A stretch of DNA of 64,000 nt, taken from assembly GCA_029547605.1 (NCBI GenBank), contig JAKPPB010000111.1, forward strand, positions 1 to 64,000, in the 5' to 3' direction. The position numbers and the translations under genes were made by a program. Shown here in pieces: positions 23,266 through 48,346 of the stretch. Numbering within the stretch: position 1 is the stretch's first letter; the number at the start of each line of letters is the position of its first letter. The stretch comes from Methanobacteriota archaeon. Lineage in GTDB: Archaea; Halobacteriota; Methanomicrobia; Methanomicrobiales; Methanospirillaceae. The notes under the pieces were generated by a model. The model was not told the DNA's origin. It saw only the letters and a program-made list of their open reading frames with translations, and did no database searches.

Positions 23266-23835
23266 TCACGGGTACTGGTGGCGCTTCCGCGAGTACTCGC
23301 CTGATCCCACCTCATCCTCTTCACCGCCGATCATCCCAAGCGATTCTTCAGCCATGCGGCGTACGTATTCGTTCTCATCCGAGAGCCTGTCAATGAGGGG
23401 TGTGACTGCACTTCTCACTCCCAGGAGTCCAAGCGATTTTGCTGCCATGTACCTGACATGGTCCTTCTCATCGGTGAGTGCCTGTATAAGGGCTGCTCCT
23501 GCGTTCGTAGAACCGCTCATCCCGAGAGCCTCGGCAGCCCTGTACCTGATCCGCCAGTCACGGTTCTGTAACAATGAGACGAGGTCCGGAACTGCGTCCT
23601 CTCCAAGGCCTGCAAGGGCGCGAGCGGCCTGGCCCCGCACTCTCTTGTCTGGATCCCTCAACGAAGTGAGGAAGAGACTTTTTTTCGAGGCGTCCTGTTC
23701 TGCCCCCAGAAGGTAGAGGGAATACCCCCGCACATGGGGATCGGGGGAGGAACTGGCCTCTCTTTCGAGCATCTCCACTGGGACTTCGCGTTTTGATTCC
23801 GGCATCCCTTGATCATCCATCCATATCCCGACCAT
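23266..23835 (-). CDS. HEAT/PBS-lyase-like repeat protein
   Basis: A 189-aa alpha-helical repeat protein with about four HEAT-like units, for example DKRVRGQAARALAGLGEDAV, DWRIRYRAAEALGMSG, DHVRYMAAKSLGLLG and NEYVRRMAEESLGMIG. Such repeats mediate protein contacts; the partner is unknown. A related shorter HEAT protein lies at 29809-30135. No signal peptide is visible. It is convergent with metG. Confidence 0.85.
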   Translation of the reverse strand: MVGIWMDDQGMPESKREVPVEMLEREASSSPDPHVRGYSLYLLGAEQDASKKSLFLTSLRDPDKRVRGQAARALAGLGEDAVPDLVSLLQNRDWRIRYRAAEALGMSGSTNAGAALIQALTDEKDHVRYMAAKSLGLLGVRSAVTPLIDRLSDENEYVRRMAEESLGMIGGEEDEVGSGEYSRKRHQYP

Positions 23836-24936: not shown

Positions 24937-25620
24937 TCAGCAGCAGTTGCTGCAACCGAAGGGACAGCCAGAGAGATACGCGGGTAAATTCACTACAGTG
25001 GTCTGGTTCGGGGCAACGACCGCTGTCGCGCACCAGACTGCATCCGAGGATGATGTTCTCCCTTTCGTCACTTTCAAACAATATGAACCGGACAGGATGT
25101 TCTTATCGAAATTGACTGGGAGAATGCCGCAATAGTGCCATTGCATGTCGTAATAATCCTCCACATCGGTGGCAAAGAACAGGGGCTTTACCCATAGATA
25201 GTAGGGACCTCCCGAACTCGGCCCGGAAACCACCATCGATCCATAACCCCTCTCAGTTGTCTCGATTGGACTCGGATAGTAGGTTGGCCCGGTTGAATAA
25301 TGCGTAACGACACTGTACACGTTGACGCCACTACAACTGCTGCAATAGCCATAGGGGGAGATGGAATCAGTGATACTGACGCTTGTCTGGGATGTCCCAG
25401 TAGTTGAACGATACCTGGACAGCTCATTCAACTGCTGGGTGAACACCGGTGTCTCCTGTATGGCACTGAATTTTTCCAGTACATTCCCCTTCGAGATAGT
25501 CATCCCCGATGTCGAAAAGGGAGCATTCAGATTCCTGGCCTCGAACGCCGCAGACGCCGGGACCAATAGCACGACTAAGACAACCATGAATGCAATTGCA
25601 TAAAGATACGTAACCTTCAT
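24937..25620 (-). CDS. Secreted protein with cysteine-rich C-terminal tail
   Basis: A 227-aa protein with a clear signal peptide (MKVTYLYAIAFMVVLVVLLV, cleavage probably after PASA at about 24). The mature part is Ser/Thr/Tyr-rich with PYGYCSSCSG, a central region YYLWVKPLFFATDVEDYYD, and the unusual ending SGCPFGCSNCC with five cysteines in the last 10 residues, which suggests disulfides or metal binding at the C-terminus. No homologous family is recognised. It is first in the 24-31 kb envelope island. The 400 bases upstream to 26021 hold no supported gene. Confidence 0.75.
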   Translation of the reverse strand: MKVTYLYAIAFMVVLVVLLVPASAAFEARNLNAPFSTSGMTISKGNVLEKFSAIQETPVFTQQLNELSRYRSTTGTSQTSVSITDSISPYGYCSSCSGVNVYSVVTHYSTGPTYYPSPIETTERGYGSMVVSGPSSGGPYYLWVKPLFFATDVEDYYDMQWHYCGILPVNFDKNILSGSYCLKVTKGRTSSSDAVWCATAVVAPNQTTVVNLPAYLSGCPFGCSNCC

Positions 25621-26021: not shown

Positions 26022-26857
26022 TTACCCGGAAGTGTAGCTCACTTCCTTTGCCAGGTTGAAGAGGCCGCTCGCGGTGGTCACGTCACTGTATGTGATCTCG
26101 CTTCCAACCGCGGTGCTGTTGCCGATCCCCTCCTGGAGATTTGCATTGACATACACCGTGGCAGTACCGACTGCTCCAGTAGTCAGGTCTCCCTCGGTCT
26201 GGTTCACGCCTTCAATCTCGACGTAGTAGTCCATTGATACCGGAGTGCTGGTTGAATCCGCGGTGATCGTGGCACCAGTTGCAGAAGTCACTGCAGCCTC
26301 GGACACAACCATTTCGGATCCTGCCACAATCACGCCATTTGTCGATGGCAACACTGCTCCATCGGGTGCTCCCCAGACCGAGTCACAGCAGGTTTCTCCT
26401 ACAGTGGCGCCATATGCAATGGTCTCTACAAGGATGCTCTCATCGGCGATCATCTTTCCAGTACTATCGCCGTCGCCGTTGGTATCATACGTCAATATTT
26501 GCGTCGACTCGAAGTTGTCGCTGTTGGCAGTCTTTGGCCCGGTGTCAAGGTTTGTGTATTTGTCATACGTCGCCTCGCCCGAAATTGCCATGATGTCCTG
26601 CTGGTAACTTATGGTTGACTGCCCTTCTCCACTGGTTGCATTCAGCGGCGGGTTGTCACTCAAGTCATTGTTTCCCTGGACATACACGAATTATCGGAAT
26701 GAGAATAGAGGTTACCGATTACCGCGGCAGATGTCCGGGTCGTGATCGATGTTGTCTCGTTGGTGGGAGGGAGTGTCCTTGCGGCAGTTGCAAAGGTCCC
26801 AAAAACTGCTATCATTATAAGAATGACAGCTATGCATATGCAGGTATTTCGTTTCAT
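26022..26857 (-). pseudogene. Secreted DLVYKEKTT-family member with a frameshift
   Basis: The signal part starts at ATG 26857 behind AAGGTGGCACA: MKRNTCICIAVILIMIAVFG, then TFATAARTLPPTNETTSITT. After AVIGNLYSHSDNS the frame breaks near 26685 and continues in another frame as VYVQGNNDLSDNPPLNATSG. Aligned with the intact copies (VMGTMTNSESVV, then NQDIRNNPPLN) this is most simply one base lost. Downstream family landmarks remain: LDTGPKTANSDNF for LDTGNKVANQKNF, IADESILVETIA for TTSESLLLDLAS, and the end VTTASGLFNLAKEVSY. It is the most diverged copy and has lost the YCN cysteine block. A sequencing error is possible. Confidence 0.7.
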
Positions 26858-27429
26858 TGTGCCACCTTGATTCGCATAAGCCTGCGTAATCAACACATTG
26901 TTATCTGTTGGAACTATTTATAGTTTCTGGACAGTACAGTGTTTTATAGGAAAACTGGTGACGAAATGAGCTTTTTAGGGGAAATAGAGAGTAAATGACG
27001 GATATTCTCCGTGATCTTTTTAGATTGCATGAAAATCACGGGGATGGATGGAAATGAGCTGATGATCGATATCCCCATCGCCGTTCCCAGGTCTGATTCA
27101 CCTGTGACCTATTATATGTCGAAAACTGCTGTAACACGAGTGAACTTTTTGCGATATTGATGAATCACATAATCCTTTTTGCCTCAATGTATGCAATTGA
27201 ACACCGGTATAGTTATTCTCGGACGACAAAGATGAATCCCGACGTAATTCCTGGGGCTGAGGAACAATCTATAAATATTCGTGAAATGATCATCCGAATT
27301 TTATTAATTGCATACAAGCGATGATTGTTCCAGATTGTTCATCGCGGTTTATTTGTAGTACGAGCGGGATAATGGCAAGATATCCAAAAAACCTGAAATG
27401 TCATGAAATAGTTCAATAAAAAAATGGGG

Positions 27430-29664
27430 TTATGGGACCGAGACTTTCTTGGTATAATAACTCCACCGACTTTTGCCGGCACAGTCATAACTCATGACTG
27501 CCAGCGTCACCGTGAAAGTCCCTTTCCTGGAATAGGTATGTTTGGGATTCCGGGATATCGAGGTCTTTCCATCGCCAAACTTCCATACCCATGATACAGG
27601 ATAGCCTGTTGACGTGTCAGTAAACTGGATGGTATGCTTAGGGGTGGTGAGGGCTTTATGAGTGAAAGATGCCTGGGTCGGACAGTTGCAGGGATTTAGG
27701 ATCTGGTAATTCCCGAAGTTCTGGGTCTGGTTGGTTGCTGCTACCGCAGTAAATTGAAATTTCCCTGATGCAGGCTCTGTCTGCTGCCATCCGGATATCT
27801 GGAGCTCGTTCACCGTGTAATTGCCAGGGTTCTTAATCAGGAGCTGGTAGTACCCCACTGGGGAAGAGACAGTCGACCCATAGAGTTGCGTCTCGTTGTA
27901 CACCCTGATCATAAAGTCCTGGAGTCCCTGCTCCCCGGAATCCCGTTTCCCGTTCCTGTTGGCGTCCAGGTATTTGTAGCCTGTCACGTATAACCATCGG
28001 AAGAAGCCGAAGTTGTTGTCAGGATGGTCTTCCTCAATGACATCAAAGAAGATACAAGTACGGGGAACCGGGTCATTACTGTAGACCACTGGCGGGACAA
28101 GAACCGGGTTCGCCATTGCATACAATTGTTCGTTGAAGTCAGTGGTGTCGCCATCCGTAATGGCGGGAACACTCACTACGTAGGGTCCAGGAGTAAGCAG
28201 TGAAAACTCGTAGAACCCGGTTTCATTCGTCTTGGTGATGTTTACAGTGCTGCAGGGGTAAGTATTCCCGCAATTGGTACAGAGCCACATGGTAAGATCC
28301 GGAATTCCGGGTTCACCGGGATCCTGCTGCCCGTTCCCATTGTTGTCATAATAGACTGTGCCGGATTTATTGTAGGTGGGGCTTGGATCGTAGCATGCTC
28401 TGTCAGTATCTTCGACAATATTCCCTCCCCCCTGTGGCGTCGCATTCGCAGTGAAATAATTGCACTGTGTTCCCAATACCGCAGTCACGGGCCCATAATA
28501 ACAGGTGAAAGACTCTCCAGGTTGTAACGGGTCAGGAGGAGTACAGGTAGGAGCATAGAGTGTATCATCCAGTTGAATGTTGGTAAGGTTCACATTTCCG
28601 TCATTTGTCACCACCAACTTGTAGTACACCGGATATCCCTCCAGCACATCAATCGGGGTCGTATCTGCGTGTGTAAAACTCACGTTGTCGGTGGAGATGA
28701 GTTTCTCAACCATGATGGATGGAATCGTTTCATAGAAGACCGATGCGTTCGCACTGATGGAACCCGGCAGGAGCGAGATGGTAGTTACCGACTGCCTGTT
28801 TCCGCCTGGGTCATACAGGAGAGTCCCATAATTGCCCCTGACATCTGCCATGATATGGGCATGTCCACTCCCCACGGGTGCTGTAAATTCCAAAGGTATT
28901 TGGCCTGTCGCATTGGTTGTGCCACTTGATGGGTTCAGGGTTCCTGATGAGTCATGATAGAAATTCACACTGATATCCTCGAGGGGATCGCCATGCTGGT
29001 CATACACCGTTGCCACAAGTGGGACTGTACCACCACCTGATGTGTCCTGGGTTACTGGAATAAGCGTAACATTGACCGGGAACCGGAACGTGCATTTTCC
29101 TTCGCTATCCCGGGGCACAGAGTTGAGGATCTGGAACGCCCTTGTCCTGACCGCATCACGGGGGGTAAGTGACTGGCGGTATGCATCATACGGTGTGGTA
29201 ATCGTCGGATCGCTCATGAACTGGTACCGCCCACCTGTTCCCTGGTAAATGCCATATGGTTCCGTGGTGAGATACCAGAGCGCCGACTGTATGGATGCAG
29301 CTTCCAGGTTGGTGAGTGTAGGAGCCGCCGCATAGGTATTAAGGATATAATTGACCGCACACCAATCCACCTGGTCGCGGATATCTTCAGAAAGTGGACC
29401 ATTCACGACAAGGATATTGCCAACACTTATCGTAGTAAAGAGGTCTATGCAGAATCCCGGATAGGTTATGCCCCCAACGTTCATATTGAAGACTTGTGCC
29501 GGGGTGTACCTGCTGTAATACCGCGTGTAAATGCTCTCACCGGCACCAAGTCCGGTGAATGTCGCGGTGGTCTGTGCAAGGGCGATCCCGGGAATGCAAC
29601 TTCCCAGAACCAGCAGTGCAAGGATCATTACGAAAACGGTGCGATTCCTCATGGTCGTGTTCAT
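27430..29664 (-). CDS. Thioester-domain, SdrD-B and PKD-containing surface protein
   Basis: A 744-aa secreted modular protein. The signal peptide is VFVMILALLVLGSCIPGIAL. Residues 32-190 resemble the TQXA/thioester domain of Gram-positive adhesins: Cys72 in YPGFCIDL and Gln126 in SIQSALWYL could form the internal Cys-Gln thioester. Next come an Ig-like (Big_1-type) domain at about 195-300, a DUF11-like repeat (YYKLVVTNDGNVNLTNIQLD), two SdrD-B/Cna-B-like units (YYDNNGNGQQDPGEPGIPDL and YLDANRNGKRDSGEQGLQDF), and a C-terminal PKD (VSWVWKFGDGKT). No sortase motif or membrane anchor is seen at the end. The promoter TATA is at 29770-29781. Confidence 0.85.
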   Translation of the reverse strand: MNTTMRNRTVFVMILALLVLGSCIPGIALAQTTATFTGLGAGESIYTRYYSRYTPAQVFNMNVGGITYPGFCIDLFTTISVGNILVVNGPLSEDIRDQVDWCAVNYILNTYAAAPTLTNLEAASIQSALWYLTTEPYGIYQGTGGRYQFMSDPTITTPYDAYRQSLTPRDAVRTRAFQILNSVPRDSEGKCTFRFPVNVTLIPVTQDTSGGGTVPLVATVYDQHGDPLEDISVNFYHDSSGTLNPSSGTTNATGQIPLEFTAPVGSGHAHIMADVRGNYGTLLYDPGGNRQSVTTISLLPGSISANASVFYETIPSIMVEKLISTDNVSFTHADTTPIDVLEGYPVYYKLVVTNDGNVNLTNIQLDDTLYAPTCTPPDPLQPGESFTCYYGPVTAVLGTQCNYFTANATPQGGGNIVEDTDRACYDPSPTYNKSGTVYYDNNGNGQQDPGEPGIPDLTMWLCTNCGNTYPCSTVNITKTNETGFYEFSLLTPGPYVVSVPAITDGDTTDFNEQLYAMANPVLVPPVVYSNDPVPRTCIFFDVIEEDHPDNNFGFFRWLYVTGYKYLDANRNGKRDSGEQGLQDFMIRVYNETQLYGSTVSSPVGYYQLLIKNPGNYTVNELQISGWQQTEPASGKFQFTAVAATNQTQNFGNYQILNPCNCPTQASFTHKALTTPKHTIQFTDTSTGYPVSWVWKFGDGKTSISRNPKHTYSRKGTFTVTLAVMSYDCAGKSRWSYYTKKVSVP

Positions 29665-29808: not shown

Positions 29809-30135
29809 ATGGCACACCCTGTGGAAGATCTCAATGAAGATTCTGCCGGTGATCTGAAAAACATGATACGGAACCTGCAGAGCCCAAACGTCGACATGCG
29901 CTGGAAGGCCGCAAGGTCATTAGCAGAAAGGGGAGAAACCGCCGTGGATGCCCTGATCATGAACCTGTACCACGATAATCCCGGGACCCGTCTCCTGGCC
30001 GCCTGGGCGCTCGGAAATACCGGAAGCAGGAAAGCACTCCCATACCTCGAACGGATGCTCGATGACGAAGACCCCTGTGCCCGGCTTGCCGTGGAGTGTG
30101 CACTCCAGCGGATTACAGGAAATACTCTTGTCTGA
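29809..30135 (+). CDS. Short HEAT-repeat protein
   Basis: A 108-aa protein with HEAT/PBS-lyase-like units: NVDMRWKAARSLAERGETAV, NPGTRLLAAWALGNTGSRKA and DPCARLAVECALQRITG. It resembles the 189-aa HEAT protein at 23266-23835. Such proteins act as small interaction scaffolds; the partner is unknown. It is divergent from the thioester protein and convergent with the secreted-family gene after it, about 26 bases away. No signal peptide is seen. Confidence 0.85.
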   Translation: MAHPVEDLNEDSAGDLKNMIRNLQSPNVDMRWKAARSLAERGETAVDALIMNLYHDNPGTRLLAAWALGNTGSRKALPYLERMLDDEDPCARLAVECALQRITGNTLV

Positions 30136-30161: not shown

Positions 30162-31217
30162 TCAGGCGCTGAACCCGGCGCAGCGGATTCCCGATGTGTA
30201 GTGCATGTTCTTCTGGAATGCCTCAATATAACCTGCTGCAGTAGTCTTCTCCCGGTAGACAAGGTCAAGGCGCTGTCCTCCACAGGGACTCGGACACTGC
30301 TCAGCGCCCTCCATGGCATGTACCCTTATATACGCCTCGACAGCCCCTCGTGCAGGGGTGACCGGAGAGATTCCGTTCACTCCAATCGTATAGGCGAGTT
30401 CTGTAGGAGGTCCATCGATGACGGGCATAGTCTTGAAAATATTCAATCCTTCGTCACCTTCATTGGCAATTTCTGCAATATTCCTTGATTTAATGCTTGT
30501 TGTAAACTGCACTTCCTTCATGTCAAGTGAGCTTCCTGTTTCAACAACGTTACAGAAGGGAGGCAGGCATTTCTGAGTATAGCAATTGAGCGGGCAATAC
30601 CAGAGTTTCTGCTCTTCAATGGAAATGGTCATTCCGACACTGTCGATCAGCGCTGACTCGTCGGATGTTATCTTCCCGGTGTCCATCCCGGAGAACCCGA
30701 CCATTTTTTCCTGATTGACATTGTACATATTGGCAGTCTTCCAGTTTGTGTCAACCAATGAACGCTTTGCATACACCGTTTTTCCATGATCTGCAAGGGT
30801 GTTCTCGCGTGTTGAGCTGGTTATCTGCACTTCATCAGGGGCAAGAGGGGGTTCGGGTTCCTCTAGGAGTACAGAGGCGAATAGAGGATAATTTGGGTAC
30901 GGTAAAATATAGTTCCCATTTCCTGGTCCCACGTATATGAAATCATCCAGCTGCTCATCATATATCCAGTCACCCTTGCCCTCTTCTACTGGAAGCGGAT
31001 AATTTTCCATACGATTCAGGTTCACGTCCAGTGCTTCGTTGCTCTGCCTCCAGACCAGCGAATCAGTCTCTGTAAAAGCCCCGACACATTTCACAGAGGT
31101 GAGGGTTGAGATCAACTGGGTCTCGGCAGTATTCGGCGGCCGGATGTCGGCAGTTACTCCCGGCGAAAAAGTGATAAAAATCAACAGTAATGCTGTGCTC
31201 CATTGCAATAACTTCAT
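30162..31217 (-). CDS. Secreted DLVYKEKTT-family protein, diverged member
   Basis: A 351-aa protein with signal peptide MKLLQWSTALLLIFITFSPG at the chosen start (31217); the longer frame runs into the tRNA genes and is rejected. Family landmarks shared with the 43-48 kb copies are: CPLNCYTQKCLPPFCNVVETGSS (four cysteines where others have two, counted as separate short blocks), YTIGVNGIS for YSVGLSGTG, HAMEGAEQ for HVMEGRTG, and RLDLVYREKTTAAGYIEAFQ at the C-terminus. It has an extra acidic, Pro-rich insertion (about 75-110, LLEEPEPPLAPDE). Function unknown. It is on the opposite strand from the main cluster, 12 kb away. Confidence 0.8.
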   Translation of the reverse strand: MKLLQWSTALLLIFITFSPGVTADIRPPNTAETQLISTLTSVKCVGAFTETDSLVWRQSNEALDVNLNRMENYPLPVEEGKGDWIYDEQLDDFIYVGPGNGNYILPYPNYPLFASVLLEEPEPPLAPDEVQITSSTRENTLADHGKTVYAKRSLVDTNWKTANMYNVNQEKMVGFSGMDTGKITSDESALIDSVGMTISIEEQKLWYCPLNCYTQKCLPPFCNVVETGSSLDMKEVQFTTSIKSRNIAEIANEGDEGLNIFKTMPVIDGPPTELAYTIGVNGISPVTPARGAVEAYIRVHAMEGAEQCPSPCGGQRLDLVYREKTTAAGYIEAFQKNMHYTSGIRCAGFSA

Positions 31218-43011: not shown

Positions 43012-44004
43012 ATGAAAAAGGCTATCCTTATCACAATTTTTCTTGCCCTCCTCGCTATAGGAATGGCAACGGCTGCTGATCCGATCCCTGCGACTATTGA
43101 GACGCAGGGCATCACGACTTCCACATCAGGTGTGTTTTATGGAACCATGACCAACACGGAGTCCGTAGTCTGGAGTGAATCAAACCTGGATCTCAGGAAC
43201 AACCCTCCACTCGGCCAGAATTACAACATTTTTAGATTTCCGATAAGCAGCAATTACCTTTGGCTAGAATTGGACCTGGATTTCCTTGATATTGATGGTG
43301 TCAATATTGGAGACATCACTTTACTCGCTCCCGAACGCCAGTCTGTGATGTCATACTCAGAGTCAATCATTGCTGACAATGGGTATGGCGAATTCAATGG
43401 TGTGCAGGCCCTCGACACCGGCAACAAGGTAGCCAACCAGAAGAACTTCGCTTCCACTGAGCAGTTTGATTTTGTCGTCTTCAGCGACGCCATGGGAAGG
43501 GCGACCACTTCAGAGAGCTTACTGCTCGACCTTGCAAGCCAGGGATCGGACGCGAGAGAGAGGTTCACCTGTCCCTTTGCGACCGGCGATGAGGGATATA
43601 TCCCGGCATACTGCAACGTGTACGAGATGGGAAGTTCTTTTACCGGAAGCCAGGTCTCGATGGTTACCAGGGTAAGTGAGAACCACATCGCAAAATCTGC
43701 CGATGTACCGACTCAGGTTGACTACTCTGTAGGCCTCTCAGGAACCGGTTCCGTGGCCTCATGGATCAATACGCATGTGATGGAGGGCAGGACCGGCGGG
43801 CACCTGGAACTGGACAATCCTCTTGGACTCCCGGTACAGGCGAATTTCCTTTGGAACTACGACACCGGTGCGCCGTTTTCGGGCCCTGGAACAGGCTTCA
43901 TGCAGAGCGTTGACCTTGTCTACAAGGAGAAGACAACCATATCGGGCGTGATCGAATCCTTCAGCAAGTCAATGAGTGTCCAGGACGCAGTCAGGCGTCT
44001 CTGA
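43012..44004 (+). CDS. Secreted DLVYKEKTT-family protein A
   Basis: A 330-aa exported protein of a family I do not recognise. Signal peptide AILITIFLALLAIGMATAA. Conserved landmarks: LDLRNNPPLGQ, MSYSESIIADNGYGEF, LDTGNKVANQKNF, CPFATGDEGYIPAYCNVYEM (the only two mature cysteines), SSFTGSQVSMVTRVSENHIA, YSVGLSGTGSVASWINTHVM, and the C-terminal SVDLVYKEKTTISGVIESFS ending SVQDAVRRL. The pattern suggests an extracellular beta-rich domain stabilised by a disulfide. No anchor is seen. First of four tandem copies; a hairpin terminator follows. Confidence 0.85.
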   Translation: MKKAILITIFLALLAIGMATAADPIPATIETQGITTSTSGVFYGTMTNTESVVWSESNLDLRNNPPLGQNYNIFRFPISSNYLWLELDLDFLDIDGVNIGDITLLAPERQSVMSYSESIIADNGYGEFNGVQALDTGNKVANQKNFASTEQFDFVVFSDAMGRATTSESLLLDLASQGSDARERFTCPFATGDEGYIPAYCNVYEMGSSFTGSQVSMVTRVSENHIAKSADVPTQVDYSVGLSGTGSVASWINTHVMEGRTGGHLELDNPLGLPVQANFLWNYDTGAPFSGPGTGFMQSVDLVYKEKTTISGVIESFSKSMSVQDAVRRL

Positions 44005-44449: not shown

Positions 44450-45385
44450 ATGAAGAAATTCGCATTCGCGGTCCTTGCCATCGCTCTCCTTGTCGGAAGT
44501 GTAATGGCAGTCGACCCCATCAATGCAACCGTCGAGACCCAGGCCATCTCCACCAGCACTGCTGTCACAGTGATGGGAACCATGACCAACTCGGAGTCTG
44601 TTGTATTGACCATGTCCAACCAGGACATCCGCAACAACCCGCCGCTGAACCAGTGGACCTATATTGGGGATGATGGATTCCCGGACGAGACCGAAACCAA
44701 CAACGTCTGGACGCCCGAGCGCCAGGCTGTGTTTTCCTATACCGAGTCCGTCCTCGCTGACAACGGTTACACCGAGTTCAACGGCGTCCAGTCCATGGAC
44801 ACTGCCAACAAGGTAGCCAACCAGAAGAACTTCAATTCCGTTGAGCAGTACGACTTCGTCGCCTTCACCGACGCAATGGGCAGGATTACCACTTCCGAGA
44901 GCCAGCTGCTCGACCTTGCCAGCCAGGGATCCGATGCACTGAGCCGGATGCTCTGTCCGTTTGCGACCGGTGACGCTGGATACATCCCGGCATACTGCAA
45001 CGTCTACGAGATGGGCAGCTCCTTCACCGGCGGCCAGGTCTCCGCAGTGACCAGGGCGAACACCAACTTCATCGCAAAGGCCGCTGACGTGCCGACCCAG
45101 ATTGACTACTCCGTTGGTCTCGCGGGAACCGGCTCTGCAGCAGCTTGGGTAAACGCCCACGTGATGGAAGGCCGGACCATGGGCTACTACGAGACTGCTA
45201 CTAACGACGCAAATGGAGAGGACTACACGCCTGCCTTCTGGAACTACGACACTGGAGCAGTTTCCCCGAGGAACGGCTTCGCTCAGGGTGTTGACCTTGT
45301 CTACAAGGAGAAGACCACCGCATCCGGCGTGATCGAGTCCTTCAGCAAGTCCATCAGTATCCAGGACGCCATCAGGCGCCTGTAA
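44450..45385 (+). CDS. Secreted DLVYKEKTT-family protein B
   Basis: A 311-aa exported protein closely related to A. Signal peptide KFAFAVLAIALLVGSVMA. The N-terminal half has VETQAISTSTAVTVMGTMTN and NQDIRNNPPLN. The middle has PERQAVFSYTESVLADNGYT and MDTANKVANQKNF. The two-cysteine block is CPFATGDAGYIPAYCNVYEM. The C-terminal half has YSVGLAGTGSAAAWVNAHVM, FWNYDTGAVSPRNGF and GVDLVYKEKTTASGVIESFS. It has a strong AGGAGG site and a clear terminator, so expression is likely high. Function unknown. Confidence 0.87.
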   Translation: MKKFAFAVLAIALLVGSVMAVDPINATVETQAISTSTAVTVMGTMTNSESVVLTMSNQDIRNNPPLNQWTYIGDDGFPDETETNNVWTPERQAVFSYTESVLADNGYTEFNGVQSMDTANKVANQKNFNSVEQYDFVAFTDAMGRITTSESQLLDLASQGSDALSRMLCPFATGDAGYIPAYCNVYEMGSSFTGGQVSAVTRANTNFIAKAADVPTQIDYSVGLAGTGSAAAWVNAHVMEGRTMGYYETATNDANGEDYTPAFWNYDTGAVSPRNGFAQGVDLVYKEKTTASGVIESFSKSISIQDAIRRL

Positions 45386-47413: not shown

Positions 47414-48346
47414 ATGAAAAAACTCGGAATTACTGCCCTGGTATTACTCGTCCTGTTCTCTGGGATGGGAATCGCGGATGACGCGGTTGGGGCTACCCGC
47501 CAGACACAGGGAATCACCACAGTCACCCATGTGGTGGTCTATGGAACATTCACCGACAGTGCCGAGGCGGTCTGGGTCTCGTCGAACCAGGACCTGCGGA
47601 ATAACCCCCCGCTGAATGCATACAGTGACAATGTAACGGCAGACGGAACGCTTGATCCAAACAACCAGATCTGGACCCCCGAAGCCCAGTATACCATGTC
47701 CTACAGTGAACAGACGCTCGCGGACAACGGGTATATTGAGTGGGACAAGACGGTGAGCCTCGATACCGGGAACAAGGTCGCAAACCAGGACAACTTCAAG
47801 GCGACCACGCAGTTTGACTTCGTGTCGTTTGAGGATGCCTTTGGGAGGGCGACGTTCTCGGAGAGCCTGCTCCTTGATGCCGCGAGCATGGGATCTTCGG
47901 CATCCAACCGGTACCTCTGTCCGTTTGGTACTGGAGACAGTGGCTACATCCCGGCGTACTGCAACATCGTCGAGATGGGAAGCTCCTTCACAGGGTCCCG
48001 GGTATCAATGGTCACCCAGGCCAGCGAGCGGCACGTGGCAGCATCCGCTGATGTCCCCGTTGGCATGAGTTACAGTGTCGGCCTCTCCGGAATCGGCTCA
48101 GCCGCTGCATGGATCAATGCCCACATCATGGAGGGCAGGACCGGCGGAGTATTCGGGTCATATGCCGCACCTGACGGCAAGACCTATGAACCAGGGTTCT
48201 GGAACTACGACACGGGCGCCGCGTCGCCTTCCAACGGGTTCATGCAGGGCGTCGACCTTGTCTACAAGGAGAAGACCACCGCATCCGGTGTGATCGAGTC
48301 CTTCAGCAAGTCGATGACCTACCAGTCCGGAACGCGCCGTCTTTAA
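47414..48346 (+). CDS. Secreted DLVYKEKTT-family protein D
   Basis: A 310-aa exported protein. Signal peptide KLGITALVLLVLFSGMGIA. Landmarks in order: TRQTQGITTVTHVVVYGTFT, NQDLRNNPPLNAY, MSYSEQTLADNGYIEW, LDTGNKVANQDNF, CPFGTGDSGYIPAYCNIVEM, SSFTGSRVSMVTQASERHVA, YSVGLSGIGSAAAWINAHIM, and C-terminal GVDLVYKEKTTASGVIESFS ending GTRRL. It matches protein C at DNA level over 48197-48303. Function unknown; probably surface-exposed or released. Confidence 0.87.
   Translation: MKKLGITALVLLVLFSGMGIADDAVGATRQTQGITTVTHVVVYGTFTDSAEAVWVSSNQDLRNNPPLNAYSDNVTADGTLDPNNQIWTPEAQYTMSYSEQTLADNGYIEWDKTVSLDTGNKVANQDNFKATTQFDFVSFEDAFGRATFSESLLLDAASMGSSASNRYLCPFGTGDSGYIPAYCNIVEMGSSFTGSRVSMVTQASERHVAASADVPVGMSYSVGLSGIGSAAAWINAHIMEGRTGGVFGSYAAPDGKTYEPGFWNYDTGAASPSNGFMQGVDLVYKEKTTASGVIESFSKSMTYQSGTRRL

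Follow-up and report, generated by a model that had tools for sequence, protein, structure and literature searches.

We analysed a 64,000-nucleotide window of archaeal DNA (contig JAKPPB010000111.1 of assembly GCA_029547605.1, positions 1 to 64,000), the host of which is a sheathed, Methanolinea-like methanogen. A gene on its minus strand encodes a secreted protein with an N-terminal domain that is almost certainly homologous to the thioester domains (TEDs) by which Gram-positive adhesins attach covalently to surfaces, followed by a row of stalk domains. The gene, with the domains and candidate residues of its product, is laid out as follows (Ig, immunoglobulin-like; aa, amino acids).

27430..29664, minus strand: open reading frame (ORF) encoding the secreted, 744-aa thioester-domain protein, which has no C-terminal anchor
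29575..29664, minus strand: signal sequence, residues 1-30, hydrophobic maximum near residue 10, predicted cleavage at ...GIALA-Q31
28756..29574, minus strand: class II-like thioester domain with an Ig insert, residues 31-303 (profiles A1 and A5)
29449..29451, minus strand: Cys72, proposed thioester Cys, in FCID; conserved in all 24 archaeal TEDs compared
29359..29361, minus strand: Cys102, probably disulfide-bonded to Cys191
29275..29292, minus strand: IQSALW, residues 125-130 (Gln126, Trp130), TQxx-Phi-W helix motif; Gln and Trp in 24 of 24
29092..29094, minus strand: Cys191, probably disulfide-bonded to Cys102
28846..29079, minus strand: Big_1/invasin-like Ig insert, residues 196-273 (Big_1 35.1 bits, marginally over the Pfam cut-off)
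28792..28794, minus strand: Gln291 in NRQSVTTISLL, terminal strand, proposed partner of Cys72; invariant in profile A3
28390..28713, minus strand: DUF7507 isopeptide-type stalk domain, residues ~318-425 (PF24346 36.5 bits, cut-off 27)
27997..28377, minus strand: SdrD_B-like stalk domain 1, residues ~430-556 (PF17210 78.5 bits in two stretches)
27700..27987, minus strand: SdrD_B-like stalk domain 2, residues ~560-655 (PF17210; motif YLDANRNGKRDSGEQG)
27433..27681, minus strand: C-terminal PKD domain, residues 662-744 (PF18911 52 bits), with which the protein ends

Orthologues of the gene were found in the Methanolinea loci L002 (367-2610; 84% identical) and L003 (5902-8133), whereas other Methanolinea genomes gave no full match to the 744-aa protein in an order-wide search. 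The protein is real. Relative to L002, non-synonymous divergence (dN) is 0.10 and synonymous divergence (dS) 1.33 (dN/dS ~0.08), and the gene is therefore under purifying selection. Its AxA-type cleavage site is shared with L003 and with the more distant relative L021.

Homology of the N-terminal domain

The N-terminal domain almost certainly belongs to the TED family, because a profile of its closest relatives reaches proteins that match PF08341 and an independent profile of archaeal TEDs finds it directly. Profile A1, made from the three Methanolinea orthologues, matched L021 (E 1e-65) and L022 (E 6e-59) full-length (positions 3-274); these relatives come from another archaeal class of the same phylum and are 40-42% identical across the whole domain. 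Against PF08341, L022 scored 26.7 bits, above the curated cut-off of 22, and L021 scored 18.7 bits when scanned as a single protein, rising to 22 in the genome search, where its frame neighbours were included. Profile A5, built only from other archaeal TEDs with the window protein left out, retrieved that protein at E 7.3e-7. The same profile located TEDs in 20 of 394 sampled genomes of the phylum (~5%), in 9 of 136 genera.

These results bear on a preliminary description of the locus, which had proposed a thioester-type adhesin and had thought it unusual for a methanogen. The proposal gains support from the homology, first transitive and then direct, and from an adhesin-like stalk, whose SdrD_B-like and PKD domains were recognized there too and score well above their Pfam cut-offs; at the frequency given above the TED is uncommon, yet not isolated. 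The family it named, PF08341, is reached indirectly, through L022 and A5, and not by a direct match. Its span for the domain, residues 32-190, was too short, as the TED runs on to about residue 303 with its Ig-like insert, and it had overlooked the Big_1-like Ig domain, the DUF7507 domain, the missing C-terminal anchor and the sheath genes nearby.

Among other archaeal proteins, single-protein PF08341 scans of L010 (20.3 bits), L012 (15.5 bits) and L081 (15.7 bits) all stayed below the cut-off, and L010 reached 22.7 bits in the genome search. We dismissed four further candidate relatives (L008, L009, L079 and L080) as chance matches. Searching PDB sequences with the window protein or with A1, A2 or A3 returned only PKD or chance matches, tblastn of the TED against plasmids gave nothing relevant, and scans of viral contigs with A3, L021 and A4 found no relatives.

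Candidate thioester residues

In TEDs, the thioester links the Cys of a [YFL]C-hydrophobic-hydrophilic motif to a Gln in a later, weak beta-strand motif; the Gln and Trp of the TQxx-Phi-W motif are conserved and not essential to the bond, the Gln hydrogen-bonding the Cys backbone (PMC4450167, PMC6194298). Class II TEDs carry a beta-sandwich inserted ahead of the bond-forming Gln (PMC6194298). We compared 24 archaeal TEDs, 19 insert-free and 5 insert-type. The Cys motif reads FCID in the window protein and L003, FCIA in L002 and YCID in L021 and L022, and the helix motif of the window protein has Ile in place of Thr. Cys72, Gln126 and Trp130 are invariant throughout the set, and the motifs are therefore not coincidental.

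A terminal-strand Gln is likewise present in all 24. It occurs in 19 of the 19 insert-free domains, mostly as Q-x-x-[IFV]-[IV]-E-[VL]; in the five insert-type domains the Gln291 position falls one column off it, after an insertion of ~80 residues, and the RQSVT context of Gln291 fits the weak bond-Gln motif in part. Three MAFFT modes aligned Gln291 with SaTIE Gln467 and TIEpLS20 Gln256, with the Cys also lined up, and a single short hhalign alignment, from a comparison insignificant overall, pairs Gln291 with the same TIEpLS20 residue. Between the N-lobe and the terminal strands lies a beta-sandwich insert, as a class II TED requires. Identity to L002, L003, L021 and L022 is 86, 73, 47 and 41% in the N-lobe, 96, 96, 46 and 52% in the terminal strands and 62, 60, 32 and 34% in the Ig insert, which thus evolves faster than the flanking TED parts. 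Two AlphaFold2 (AF2) runs, with the three Methanolinea orthologue sequences as input, ordered the elements at low confidence as Cys strands, TQxx-Phi-W helices, Ig strands and a last strand at or beside Gln291, an order that fits the published TED description (PMC4450167). From residue conservation and strand position, we consider it quite likely that a Cys72-Gln291 thioester forms in the window protein.

The preliminary description had correctly located YPGFCIDL with Cys72 and SIQSALWYL with Gln126 in the ORF, and its thioester Cys is the right residue; its choice of Gln126 as the partner does not hold. Both residues of that pair are invariant in all archaeal members, but Gln126 is the TQxx-Phi-W Gln, which is non-essential in characterized TEDs, where the bond Gln lies in a later strand (PMC4450167, PMC6194298), and every archaeal member has a separate Gln on its terminal strand; a Cys72-Gln126 bond is therefore highly improbable. 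The Cys72-Gln126 distance does not discriminate, since in genuine TEDs the TQxx-Phi-W Gln touches the backbone of the Cys (PMC4450167, PMC6194298). Two other partners for Cys72 were rejected, Gln148 (Asn in L077) and Gln206 (Glu in L021 and L022). We also discarded a local similarity between GTLLYDPGGNRQSV and SaTIE GTPLVYTSGNAQKV, which 214 of 2000 shuffles equalled. The divergent L077 keeps the Cys and the helix motif, and its last-strand Gln, in KEYQETIALV, sits about two residues off register.

Several results weigh against a thioester-bearing adhesin. PF08341 does not match the window protein or its genome directly, even at E=10, and hhalign comparison of A3 and A1 with Bacillus class II TEDs was insignificant (probability ~1%). 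The AF2 models are poor, with mean predicted local distance difference test (pLDDT) scores of 51 and 43.5, so that no bond distance was obtainable, and in a Foldseek search with the first, poor model the Ig part alone found matches, such as intimin D00-D0. L002 carries FCIA instead of FCID. Shuffled controls placed Gln291 opposite the bacterial bond Gln in 13 of 150 cases, and we therefore count this alignment as consistent with the proposed pairing and not as proof. The last 150 aa of the protein reach a maximum hydropathy of 0.31, with no anchor, membrane helix or hydrophobic tail, and no target was found.

Two alternatives draw on these points. The protein could be an ordinary multi-domain Ig/PKD surface protein in which the Cys and Gln motifs are coincidental, as most of its domains are common surface modules and a direct Pfam TED match is lacking; given the invariant motif residues and an N-terminal profile homology that links it with proteins matching PF08341 as well as with independent archaeal TEDs, we find this scarcely credible. 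The domain could also be a TED by descent whose thioester has been lost, leaving a structural or non-covalent head with Cys72 free or disulfide-bonded. The two additional Cys of the Methanolinea proteins, the Ala that follows Cys-Ile in L002 and the failure of PF08341 to detect the domain any longer would suit such a loss. However, Cys72 and Gln291 are invariant among the five close relatives and the terminal strands are the best-conserved part among orthologues. Cys102 and Cys191 are both present in the three Methanolinea orthologues and both lost in L021 and L022, which suggests a separate disulfide that leaves Cys72 free. We regard a lost thioester as unlikely.

Sheath-gene neighbourhood

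The gene is surrounded by members of a large family of secreted proteins recognized by profile A7, of which the window holds at least five, and by a small Cys-rich protein gene.

30162..31217, minus strand: SH/MspA sheath-family protein, upstream neighbour (A7, E 2e-30)
26022..26917, minus strand: SH/MspA sheath-family gene, downstream neighbour (A7 matches 26025-26690 and 26663-26917 in different frames)
43012..44004, plus strand: SH-family gene (A7, E 1.5e-29)
44450..45385, plus strand: SH-family gene (A7, E 4e-25)
47414..48346, plus strand: SH-family gene (A7, E 3e-37)
24937..25620, minus strand: small secreted Cys-rich protein, syntenic in L002, L003, G153 and G154

We set the start of the upstream neighbour at MKLLQW because a longer ORF overlaps tRNA-Asp. 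The frame of the downstream neighbour is broken near its N-terminus in the window genome and intact in L002 and L003. A7 also matches, in G197 (which we take to be M. hungatei JF-1), a protein of 377 aa and 40.5 kDa with Cys257, Cys271, D43 and K363. These are residues published for the M. hungatei sheath protein SH/MspA (PMC6242892, PMC10593813). Judged by this member, the A7 family is the sheath (SH/MspA) family, the sheath being a resistant tube of protein around these cells, and the thioester gene, with such genes on both sides, therefore lies within a sheath-gene cluster. A7 does not match 27430-29664 itself, and the thioester protein shows no SH core.

Two other Methanolinea genomes (G153 and G154) have the same locus, with genes for a LeuA-like protein, HEAT, SH, the Cys-rich protein, HEAT and MetRS, without the thioester gene, which is therefore an accessory component. 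The genomes of L021 and L022 contain no SH genes detectable with A7, so the co-occurrence of TED and sheath genes is not general. All Methanolinea have been reported to have sheath proteins, none with Ig-like extensions, and Ig-bearing sheath adhesins have been proposed in Methanothrix (PMC11576556). The Cys-rich protein at 24937-25620 ends in ...CPFGCSNCC, and its L003 orthologue has no NCBIfam match. Most Methanolinea loci in the comparison have HEAT-repeat-like genes (29809-30135 and 23266-23835 in the window) at the edges of the sheath/thioester cluster.

Proposed function and archaeal relatives

The best explanation, and in our judgement a likely one, is that the window gene gives a sheathed methanogen a secreted protein with a class II-like TED, which acts as a fibrillar adhesin or as a cross-linker. 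After secretion, the Cys72-Gln291 internal thioester would form at the junction of beta and alpha lobes, the Ig insert serving as a second lobe of the TED. The bond would remain buried until a nucleophile, for example the lysine amine of a matching target, reached it, and the target would then be captured covalently; on balance, we lean towards such capture. The DUF7507, SdrD_B and PKD domains would together make up a stiff stalk. Isopeptide bonds have been reported in a set of families that includes DUF7507 (PMC12617251); no ester domain was seen in the stalk. Given the lack of a membrane or sortase-type anchor and the position of the gene in a sheath cluster, the protein would most likely be held on or in the sheath, through its PKD end or the thioester itself, although that it attaches to or acts on the sheath is a tentative assignment, slightly short of even. 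The syntrophic role suggested in the preliminary description is possible.

The thioester might instead serve self-assembly, linking the protein covalently to sheath subunits and so cross-linking or decorating the sheath, and not a partner cell. SH-family genes flank the thioester gene on both sides, Methanolinea loci that carry it retain their SH neighbours, and the protein has no anchor of its own. Against this, other Methanolinea retain the sheath cluster without the thioester gene, the L021 and L022 genomes lack detectable SH genes, and proximity is not interaction, so that we rate self-assembly as rather doubtful. A broader and speculative proposal, which we think could hold but would not favour, is a covalent 'chemical harpoon' in the sheath system: an anchorless thioester protein, co-encoded with amyloid-like sheath subunits, would be fixed covalently to the sheath or would fix the sheath to neighbouring cells. 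It would be one of a broader group of TIE-like adhesins in archaea that has gone undescribed, with archaeosortases in place of sortases doing the sorting in some lineages.

A 2015 survey reported thioester adhesins from Gram-positive bacteria only (PMC4450167), and in a 2025 survey few domains co-occurred with archaeal isopeptide domains (PMC12617251). We found no description of PF08341-type TEDs in archaea in a literature search of incomplete coverage, and databases may already hold archaeal entries. Our analysis extends TEDs with conserved key residues to several archaeal lineages and pairs the archaeal TED with isopeptide-type stalks and, in Methanolinea, with sheath genes. Should the bond form, covalent adhesion would not be confined to Gram-positive bacteria, and it would become testable how filamentous methanogens attach to partners, one another or their own sheath.

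The window protein most resembles the class II TEDs of Gram-positive TIE proteins (BaTIE 6FWV, SaTIE 6FX6, EfmTIE86 and TIEpLS20; PF08341/PF20610), which are likewise N-terminal and secreted, with a Cys motif, a TQxx-Phi-W-like helix motif, a beta-sandwich insert before the terminal-strand Gln and a stalk of beta domains behind. Unlike them, it is archaeal, has a Big_1/invasin-like Ig insert and Ile for Thr in TQxx-Phi-W, and lacks LPXTG or any other anchor, and its thioester is putative. L021 and L022 share the TED with Ig insert and differ in being only ~350 aa long and stalkless, with a C-terminal hydrophobic tail; the L022 gene lies near an exosortase/archaeosortase gene. Class I-like archaeal TEDs (for example L070/L071 and L085-L095) have the same Cys, motif Gln/Trp and terminal Gln but no Ig insert, and many end in a hydrophobic sorting-type tail. 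Archaeal SH/MspA proteins, including the Ig-extended 'sheath adhesins' of Methanothrix (PMC11576556), are also secreted and encoded in the same cluster, but possess the SH core that the window protein lacks. Archaeal alpha-2-macroglobulin/TEP-type proteins (PMC8416519) are extracellular too and have an internal, reactive Cys-Gln thioester, but in another domain with a CxEQ motif, and we saw no homology to the window TED.

The order TED-DUF7507-SdrD_B-DUF7507 with a hydrophobic C-terminal tail occurs in L070/L081. Such proteins, the tail being of sorting type, are encoded in another archaeal family (L081-L084 and L101, from G242, G305, G309 and G371), G309 carrying two copies. By their domain order, L081-L084 and L101 are putative archaeal TIE-like adhesins that follow the same stalk logic as the window protein. 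Short TED proteins with a sorting-type tail are encoded near an exosortase/archaeosortase-family gene at L075 (5759-8524) and L076 (1824-6430); the family assignment at L075 rests on matches to PF09721 (188 bits) and TIGR04178 (59 bits). The pairing of a TED protein with an archaeosortase-type gene suggests a parallel to that of LPXTG adhesins with sortase.

Among the remaining archaeal members, L085, L087, L091, L094 and L102 are ~200-240 aa long and consist of a TED and a C-terminal hydrophobic tail (for example PEFP...) with little else. At 1279-1905 of L007, a TED gene has its terminal strand apparently in another frame and Glu in place of the motif Gln, and appears to be a copy that is frameshifted or decaying, or else to reflect an assembly error. 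In L077 (G494), a divergent TED with an Ig insert is followed by carboxypeptidase-regulatory-like and DUF11-like sequence, and the frame starts without a signal peptide.
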